Part shown: piece by piece, positions 59,211-63,898 of the stretch
Layout of the letters: each line of letters starts with the position of its first letter
Position numbering within the stretch: position 1 is the first letter of the stretch
Assembly: GCA_012798695.1 (NCBI GenBank)
Contig: JAAZMR010000074.1
Location: forward strand, 1-64,000
DNA: 64,000 nt
Source: Bacillota bacterium
Lineage (GTDB): Bacteria; Bacillota; Limnochordia; DTU087
Direction: 5' to 3'
The notes under the pieces: model-generated
Told to the model about the DNA's origin: nothing
The model's input: only the letters and a program-made list of their open reading frames with translations
Database searches by the model: none
Position numbers and translations under genes: made by a program

Positions 59211-59843
59211 CTATTCCTCGCGTTCCTTCAAACTCTCAAGCAGCAAGGATAACTCTTCTTCCCCATTGTACGGGATTCCGCGTTCAAAGTTGCGGATTTC
59301 AAATTCCGGCAAACTCGATATGGGAATACTAGTAACTCGCACTAGTTTTCTGTAGACCTCAGGTTTTCCCCGAAATACCGCCACTTTTCCATCGGAAATA
59401 CCCAGAAAAGTAAGGTGACCATAAAGTGTCTCCATATGTGTTTCCGGGATTCTCACCGTAAGCCGTTCCGGTGAGAACCCAACAACTCGCCATTCGGGGT
59501 GGATACTTCTAATCTCTCCTAGTGTTCGCCCCACTAGCTCTTCTGGCAGTGCTGAAGTCGATGTGGTCAGCACTTGTCCGGTATCAGAGATTACCGTCCG
59601 CACCAAGTCAGCCTCTGATAGCAGGCGCAACTGTGGTTCACCGAAATTGTTCCCTGAGAAGGGCGATTCCTGCAACCCCGTCTGCTCAATATCAAGATCT
59701 CGCTCTGCCTCCAACTGGTCCTGTACCTTCACCGGGGCAGGAGAAGTTGGTGCTCCCTGCCATACCCAAACTGTGAAGCAAAAACCGAGACAGAACGAGA
59801 AGACGGCGACACCTAGCAGCAACCACCTATGCCGTGCCACCAT
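59211..59843 (-). CDS. bofC: BofC-like protein (bypass-of-forespore C, C-terminal domain)
   Basis: A 210-residue protein with an N-terminal membrane helix or signal anchor (LLLGVAVFSFCLGFCFTVWVW). A BofC_C-type domain lies at the end (LTFLGISDGKVAVFRGKPE, SSLPEFEIRNFERGIPYN). Bacillus BofC restrains SpoIVB in the forespore and so delays sigma-K activation; its gene also lies beside the ruv genes. A middle segment of about 70 residues is not recognisable. ATG after GGGAGA. The symbol rests on the domain and context, so the role is likely rather than certain. Confidence 0.82.
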   Translation of the reverse strand: MVARHRWLLLGVAVFSFCLGFCFTVWVWQGAPTSPAPVKVQDQLEAERDLDIEQTGLQESPFSGNNFGEPQLRLLSEADLVRTVISDTGQVLTTSTSALPEELVGRTLGEIRSIHPEWRVVGFSPERLTVRIPETHMETLYGHLTFLGISDGKVAVFRGKPEVYRKLVRVTSIPISSLPEFEIRNFERGIPYNGEEELSLLLESLKEREE

Positions 59844-62180: not shown

Positions 62181-62400
62181 CACCACTTAGGCCACCGGGG
62201 AAACCACTTATTGACGATTACGCGACCACAAGGTTCGGATCTCGGCCTCGTCTCCGAGCTTTCCACCCGCTTCGCCAATTGGATACGCGTCCCGTCTTAT
62301 CACCTATATGGTCCCAACACTAATCAGCAGCATAGTCCCATACCCATCACTGCGTCATACGAGTATTCTGTCAGTGAAAATGAAAGGAGGTGACTCGACG

Positions 62401-62967
62401 ATGAAGCAAATTCTAGAGCAATTCCCCAATAGCTGTACTGACGAGCTGAATGAGCAGATCTGTACCAATTTTGCAGTTACCTTTACCACCGAAGCCACCG
62501 ATGAGGTCGTTGATGTAGTCTGCCTCGGTCCCTGTGCTCCAGAAGTGCTCTGCCGTTTCGAGGTCACTAACCCACAGACTGGACAGACGGCCATCTATTC
62601 CATTGTCTTTGATAGTGTACAACAACTAGGACCCGTTCAGCGCTGGTGCTATAGGGTGAGTGTTCAGGGCGATCCAGCACTCAGCCATTGGGTAATTGAG
62701 CTCTGCAATCCGCCACCCATGGTGACCGCTGTCACACGCAATGGGGTTCCCATCCCGTTTAATGTTGGCGTTCAAGCCGATTTAGGTGGACAGACTGGCC
62801 TCAAATTTGATGCCGGCACAACGCAGGCAGATGGAGTAGTCTTGTACTGCTTTGATGTAATCGGACAGTTTAATCAGGTGTTGCGAGATGTAGCCGCCAA
62901 GGGTGGTCCGGCACCGGCAACCCTCAATCCCGATTGTCAATTGGGGCCTGCTTGCCCATGCCCATAA
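62401..62967 (+). CDS. Unknown protein with N-terminal four-cysteine module
   Basis: A 188-residue protein of a family I do not recognise. Residues 1-45 form a module with C12, C21, C41 and C45 (CTDELNEQIC and CLGPC), repeated in the 49-residue protein of the next gene. The rest is beta-rich with more cysteines (RWCYRVSVQG, IELCNPPPM, VLYCFDVIG) and ends in CQLGPACPCP. There is no signal peptide or membrane helix. The start ATG lies nine bases after AAAGGAGGTG, an almost perfect ribosome site. It could be a structural, metal-binding or disulfide-linked protein, for example of the spore; this is a guess. Confidence 0.8.
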   Translation: MKQILEQFPNSCTDELNEQICTNFAVTFTTEATDEVVDVVCLGPCAPEVLCRFEVTNPQTGQTAIYSIVFDSVQQLGPVQRWCYRVSVQGDPALSHWVIELCNPPPMVTAVTRNGVPIPFNVGVQADLGGQTGLKFDAGTTQADGVVLYCFDVIGQFNQVLRDVAAKGGPAPATLNPDCQLGPACPCP

Positions 62968-63115
62968 TCTCTTAGCCGTCTGGGACACTGTTTCTGATAA
63001 TCGGAGGCAGCTCTTATTGCAGGATACGATCGCTTGACGTAGTCTAGATTGCAGTCAGTTTTCTGTAGAACCCTGAAAGAACCAGCATAATCGACGATTG
63101 AAGGAGGTGAATTAT

Positions 63116-63265
63116 ATGGCAAAGATTCAGCAGCTTGAGATCAATCAGTGTATTGATGAGTTCAATGAGCTGATCTGTGTCACCTTTGAGGTTACCTTTA
63201 CTGTAACGGCAGTGGCCGAGGTAACCAATGTCGAGTGCCTTGGGCCCTGTCCCGAAGTGGGATAA
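63116..63265 (+). CDS. 49-residue protein made of the same four-cysteine module
   Basis: A short gene whose product aligns without gaps to the first 45 residues of the preceding protein. Both have N10, C12, D14, E15, N17, E18, I20, C21, F24, VTFT at 26-29, A32, E35, V36, V39 and CLGPC at 41-45 (24 of 45 identical). It then ends after PEVG. The AAGGAGGTGA ribosome site matches that of the larger gene. Either it is a stand-alone minimal module or a paralogue that has lost its C-terminal part. The function is unknown. Confidence 0.82.
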   Translation: MAKIQQLEINQCIDEFNELICVTFEVTFTVTAVAEVTNVECLGPCPEVG

Positions 63266-63375
63266 GGGCTGCAACTATCAGCGCATGTTGGGTTGTGCTA
63301 GTATAGCTCTCCTTGCTGCAGGGCTCTTGGGCTGCATCCAAAGCCACTGCAAACGCTGCTAACAGAGAGTTACTG

Positions 63376-63406
63376 GGGGGTGCACAGCCAAGAAGTGTGC
63401 ACTCCC
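63376..63406. repeat. Inverted repeat before the last gene
   Basis: Arms GGGGGTGCACA and TGTGCACTCCC pair over 11 bases (one G-T) with a nine-base loop. No U-tract follows. It lies 30 bases before the start at 63437 and may be an operator, an RNA hairpin or a weak terminator for the module genes. Confidence 0.5.
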
Positions 63407-63436
63407 TACATATTACTGTATGCTAGGGGGTAGATT

Positions 63437-63898
63437 ATGTCTTCCAGTAAATCAACAACTGTTAGGCTGCAGCGGTACTATAAAGTGACCAAAGCATCTC
63501 CCAAACCTTTAAGCCCAGAGGACATCCATGTCGACATAAACCAGGCAAGCCACATGCCGTCGCATGTCAGTGATCAACCTAATTCCTTTGCTCTAGCTTT
63601 ACTTTGGTCTTATTATCAGGCATGTCAGCAAGGTAGCCTTGACGAAGCACTACCATCTCCATGGGAAATCATCACTCTGGATGCTCCCGATGAGGAGACT
63701 CTATGGATTAGATTCCTTAAGGAAATGATCACAGATAAGACATGGGTGGACTGGATCCAAGACCCCAAAGAAGTGAAGCGCCGTGCTCTAACAGCTTTCC
63801 AACACTTGACTAATGGAGGTTCCGAAGAAGAGCCTAACCTAGAAGAAAGCGTATTGACATCTGACCAGAAAGAGGTATCGCCAACATGCTCAACTTAG
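63437..63898 (+). CDS. Hypothetical protein
   Basis: A 153-residue soluble protein I do not recognise. It has a basic start (VRLQRYYKVTKA), a central helical region with aromatic residues (SFALALLWSYYQACQQGSLDEA, LWIRFLKEMITDKTWVDWI) and a low-complexity acidic end (GGSEEEPNLEESVL). There is no signal peptide or membrane segment. The ATG lies after AGGGGGT. It follows the two four-cysteine genes on the same strand, but a hairpin lies between, so co-transcription is uncertain. Confidence 0.65.
   Translation: MSSSKSTTVRLQRYYKVTKASPKPLSPEDIHVDINQASHMPSHVSDQPNSFALALLWSYYQACQQGSLDEALPSPWEIITLDAPDEETLWIRFLKEMITDKTWVDWIQDPKEVKRRALTAFQHLTNGGSEEEPNLEESVLTSDQKEVSPTCST

Follow-up and report, generated by a model that had tools for sequence, protein, structure and literature searches.

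What are two neighbouring genes, one long and one short, whose products begin with the same pattern of cysteines and belong to no recognised protein family? They lie close to the end of the window, as we call the whole stretch of 64,000 nucleotides of Bacillota DNA that was analyzed. The long gene (62401..62967, + strand) encodes a 188-residue protein (P0002) with 11 cysteines, made up of an N-terminal Cys4 module and an all-β domain, and has orthologues at 53–86% identity in G001–G004 and G006. The module occupies residues 1–48 (62401..62544, + strand) and matches the A1 profile at 7.8e-23. The short gene (63116..63265, + strand) encodes a protein of 49 residues and 4 cysteines (P0001), which is the Cys4 module alone.

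The gene pair and its shared module

An earlier note on this DNA had described a four-cysteine module common to the two proteins, and this is confirmed. Over their first 45 residues, P0002 and P0001 align without gaps at 24 of 45 identities; all four cysteines (C12, C21, C41, and C45) are common to both, as is CLGPC at 41–45. Shifting the alignment by 1–5 residues leaves 7 identities at most, and 100,000 composition-keeping shuffles never gave more than 13. These four cysteines follow the frame C-x8-C-x19-C-x3-C, set around an alternating hydrophobic stretch. The strong ribosome-binding sites that had been noticed on both genes also hold up: AAGGAGGTG precedes each of them, at 62384..62392 (+ strand) for the long gene, where it is kept in six orthologues, and at 63101..63109 (+ strand) for the short gene, where AGGAGGTGA is retained in three of four orthologues. 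GAGTAT, together with a strong ribosome site, is common to the upstream regions of the six long-gene orthologues. As had been stated, there is no sign of export, with neither N terminus containing a signal-like hydrophobic stretch.

The possibility, raised with the original description, that the short gene is an untranslated remnant can be set aside, because dN lies far below dS and substitutions are biased toward third codon positions. Against its orthologues, dN/dS is ∼0.07–0.14 where dS is unsaturated (dN 0.14 and dS 1.03 for G001; dN 0.07 and dS 0.96 for G004), and the majority of substitutions fall at third positions; for G004, the counts at codon positions 1, 2, and 3 are 5, 1, and 19. 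Judged by this pattern of substitution, the short gene is translated and under strong purifying selection.

Neither window protein matches any Pfam or NCBIfam family, even at E 10, or any PHROGs family, and PDB chains provide no match to the two proteins or to the module; sequence matches in the PDB to cathepsin B and a histidine kinase were rejected as chance. Pfam and NCBIfam scans of the relatives gave nothing informative beyond YmaF, in a neighbor gene, and the weak matches of one protein (L058) that is considered below. A literature search found no paper naming the module motif. By the measure of these searches, the Cys4 module is a real, undescribed family, as the earlier note had proposed.

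Distribution and domain architecture

Among the 61 relatives searched, both genes are adjacent in G001, G002, G003, and G004, which belong to other genera of the same family; G006 has the long gene, at a contig end, and the five genomes of genus g6, also of this family, have neither. Synteny of the two genes extends over five genera, all within a single Bacillota family. A profile search of other genomes with the module had been suggested and was productive: across the class (73 genomes), it identified carriers in families f1 (six genomes) and f3 (two genomes), eight in all. A profile scan of GTDB r220 contigs returned only eight loci, all of them in Bacillota MAGs of the series AS23 and AS15, which we take to derive from anaerobic digesters. 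No relative was found in viral contigs, phages, or plasmids, including by searches with the relatives' sequences.

More distant relatives were reached by way of the second domain of the long protein. A search with this domain (residues 51–188; A3) led to a 282-residue protein of G351 with a module-like C terminus, and that C-terminal stretch, followed by a combined profile, was then searched over 399 sampled genomes. Six of these (G139, G196, G320, G351, G432, and G445) contain Cys4 modules, often two per protein, with the patterns C-x8-C-x19-C-x(3-8)-C and [EQ]-x-[ILVF]-C-V. The Cys4 family (A1/A4/A7) conforms to C-x(8-12)-C-x19-C-x(3-9)-C, with [EQ]-x-[ILVF]-C-[VIT] at the second cysteine, and every f1 module preserves the cysteine frame, as do most of the wider relatives. 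Comparison of the f1/f3 modules with the other members from the phylum by hhalign gave an E value of 6.9e-8 (probability 94.6%, 34 columns). When HMMs were made from one group only, most members of the other outscored nearly all shuffles in which the cysteines were held fixed, with the weaker members overlapping the tail of the shuffles. These comparisons make it likely that the f1/f3 and distant modules share descent, although 34 Cys-rich columns could also reflect convergence. The spread is patchy, with the module present in just 1 of 46 genomes of the family to which G445 belongs. Adjacent shorter and longer module proteins are encoded in G351 (186 and 282 residues), G432 (161 and 276), G196 (100 and 265), and G445 (156 and 254), all being open-frame lengths. 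The initial picture of one long and one minimal protein is therefore correct insofar as the pair is real, but the module is not confined to it and has distant homologues phylum-wide.

The module can stand alone, at the N terminus (the long proteins of f1), or at the C terminus of unrelated proteins (L011 in G021; L018 in G006); in L041 and L043, it is followed, in a single frame, by a membrane segment with cysteines. Because it is found alone, at either terminus, and ahead of a membrane tail, the module is, as far as its sequence relationships tell, a mobile unit and more than the N terminus of one protein; the earlier claim that it exists both alone and fused is borne out by the same examples. 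A further architecture is seen in L098:357-950 (G006) and L044 (G004), where a 197-residue β-rich cysteine protein has the module at its C terminus.

Residues 51–188 of the long protein (domain 2; 62551..62964, + strand) form a second family, wider in its spread than the module and with distant homologues. This domain is predicted to be a 10-strand all-β structure and has a C-terminal GPACPCP. AF2 modeling with eight sequences was confident for it, most blocks having a pLDDT of about 90 or higher, the last block excepted, and residues 1–47 of P0002 had a pLDDT of <50. In a Foldseek search of the long protein against the PDB, nothing reached E 0.001, and only generic β-sandwich proteins were returned. 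Domain 2 and the module are combined in f1, where the module comes first; in L011 of G021, where it comes last; and in proteins of G351 and G432, which have their modules last. That the same two domains recur together in different orders suggests that they may work together. In G011, a domain 2 protein (L010:1160-2094) and its 73-residue neighbor share CxxC...GVWCxNxxxLSxxITLPIxG and may be a second long/short pair, built on a different shared module.

A proposed role in the spore outer layer

We put at slightly better than even, about 0.55, the probability that both genes encode Cys-rich proteins that are made in the mother cell, cross-linked by disulfides, and structural in the outer layer of the spore, be it coat or exosporium. 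This reading is favored because the two are a pair of Cys-rich, leaderless, β-forming proteins in a spore former. The absence of a leader and a cysteine content (11 of 188 and 4 of 49 residues) that is high, as in CsxA and CsxB, would fit spore-layer proteins made in the cytosol. That the proteins sit in the spore, form disulfides, add strands to neighbors, and build a lattice is our inference. In essence, the module would act as a cross-linking unit, its hydrophobic stretch adding to neighboring β structure and its cysteines then making disulfides, both inside a subunit and from one subunit to the next. In the long protein, the module would be combined with a β-domain that builds the body of the layer, and the short protein would supply only the cross-linker, as a filler or adaptor. 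The AF2 model of P0001, built from 34 module sequences and of moderate confidence (mean pLDDT 75, pTM 0.21), shows a chain that is extended and does not pair with itself; such a chain would suit, and faintly hints at, a strand added to a partner.

The genome that encodes P0001 and P0002 carries spoIVA, and a BofC-domain protein (Pfam BofC_C, 37.5 bits against a cut-off of 21) is encoded at 59211–59843 on the − strand, 2.5 kb from the pair. The BofC-domain gene sits in a ruvC-yebC-bofC-prsW-pgsA stretch. Gene C (63437..63898, + strand), which encodes a 153-residue protein of no family, lies beside the short module gene as a conserved neighbor in both f1 and f3. In G320, spoIVA is followed on the same strand by a gene for an ACT-domain protein and then by a two-module gene, the full order being der, plsY, gpsA, spoIVA, the ACT-domain gene, and the module gene (der, plsY, and gpsA were named by eye). 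The mere presence of spoIVA carries no weight, since genomes without the module have it too: it was found in 76 of the 80 phylum genomes tested, carriers and non-carriers alike, and in the family of the window genome, the five g6 members have SpoIVA and no module. A scan for sporulation sigma motifs upstream of the six long-gene orthologues revealed no clear sporulation promoter.

The closest likenesses are among known spore proteins. CsxA of Clostridium sporogenes, with 25 cysteines, self-assembles into a disulfide-linked exosporium array; it can assemble inside a cell, and the lattice dissolves only under harsh reduction (PMC7333573). The exosporium of C. sporogenes also contains CsxB (151 residues, 10 cysteines) and an uncharacterized 6.6-kDa protein with four cysteines (PMC4942563). 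CsxA, CsxB, and CsxC are likewise Cys-rich and from spore formers, and the window pair is likened to them by description and not by Csx sequence; the window proteins are smaller, with one module each. CsxB resembles a two-module protein of G445 (155 residues, 10 cysteines) in size and cysteine count only, a similarity that we regard as a lead. ExsY and CotY of the Bacillus cereus group are Cys-rich exosporium lattice proteins cross-linked by disulfides (PMC7333573), a likeness in kind, but the window proteins match no Pfam or NCBIfam model of ExsY, CotY, or CotZ. Similarly, the subunits of the ENA endospore appendages (DUF3992, DUF4183) are β-rich, with Cys motifs in the S-type (PMC11952670), whereas the window proteins are without a match to either DUF. 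The anchors of F-ENA have CsxA-like and DUF11 domains (PMC11952670). The latter recall L058, in which domain 2 is joined to weak DUF7927/DUF11-like matches.

The +1 frame behind the short gene and competing explanations

The short gene ends with TAA at 63263–63265, and directly 3' of it the +1 frame reads KGCNYQRMLGCASIALLAAGLLGCIQSHCKRC (63264..63362, + strand), with a stop at 63362. This tail, a candidate coding sequence, comprises a membrane-like segment and Cys. A matching membrane-like and mostly Cys-containing segment occurs in the same relative frame in G001, G002, and G004 and is absent from G003, so that, with the window genome, four of five genomes have it. In these four, the +1 frame alone is membrane-like (KD 2.0–2.65, a value reached by 0–4 of 400 shuffles). 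In hand-made codon alignments of the tail, pS and pN are 1.0 and 0.38 between G000 and G002 and 0.57 and 0.26 between G000 and G004, and there is no coding signal between G000 and G001. What speaks for translation of the tail is that G000 and G002, at a DNA identity (46%, versus 44% for intergenic DNA) that is background, keep the pattern nonetheless, with synonymous change far above non-synonymous. The tail may extend the short protein by frameshifting, be read as a micropeptide after re-initiation, or be a relic in decay. Between it and gene C lies a GC-rich hairpin, GGGGGGTGCACAGCC..GTGTGCACTCCC (63374..63407, + strand; GGGGGGTGCAC...GTGTGCACTCCC), the arms of which are kept in relatives and which has no clear T-run.

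One might therefore ask whether the working product of the short gene is a membrane-anchored module, arising by a +1 shift or re-initiation and tying the layer to the forespore membrane. The membrane-like character of the +1 frame alone and the excess of synonymous change in two of the comparisons argue for this, as do L041 and L043, where module and membrane-Cys tail are joined in one frame. Against this, and against translation of the tail as such, the tail of G004 is interrupted by TAG, a +1-frame stop in G001 lies two codons ahead of the one place where a shift could occur, G003 is without a tail, the G000–G001 comparison is silent, and across the relatives there is neither a consistent start codon nor a classic slippery site. 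We consider the anchored product unlikely. A variant in which the short gene has two products, a soluble 49-residue cross-linker and, via a +1 shift at the TAA, the same module with a membrane/Cys tail that would anchor a set fraction in the forespore membrane, is more doubtful still. If translated, the tail would be an unusual way to obtain a single protein in both a soluble and an anchored form.

Instead of cross-linking through disulfides, the module could mediate interactions as a small zinc-like fold that binds metal. Metal binding had been among the initial suggestions, and the four cysteines with their terminal CxxxC, invariant in f1, are what such a fold would have. This much of the suggestion stands, but the spacing of the last two cysteines varies from about 3 to 8 residues in the wider family, and C41 is replaced in L041 and L043, where a new cysteine appears in the loop; both argue against a fixed metal site. 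Moreover, there are no CxxC pairs, and AF2 shows no compact fold, all of which leaves this explanation quite improbable.

Elsewhere in the class, domain 2 is found in proteins with signal peptides (L053–L055, in G019, G022, and G048), where it is followed by a domain of ∼100 residues; each of these adjoins a secreted protein of ∼250 residues with the motif N-H-[VI]-S-V-[AG]-Q-W. The signal peptides would be in keeping with a surface or adhesion system of vegetative cells, but these relatives are without the module and the carriers of the module are without a signal peptide, and we regard such a system as very unlikely here. Finally, the early idea of a precursor peptide for a modified natural product, which a small size, cysteines, and a strong ribosome site would suit, is scarcely credible given that the neighbors (pgsA, prsW, yebC, bofC, and gene C) include no maturation enzyme and that the entire module is conserved and fused to other domains.

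We return, then, to Cys-rich structural proteins of the spore outer layer. If that is what its members are, the module family would be ordinary in kind. Cys-rich layer proteins diverge so rapidly that every lineage seems to have a set of its own; a module with a name and a constant cysteine frame, found alone and fused in distant spore formers, would offer a common part to seek in spores. It may thus be of use in considering the spores of uncultured digester bacteria and, at the bench, as a small unit of self-assembly.
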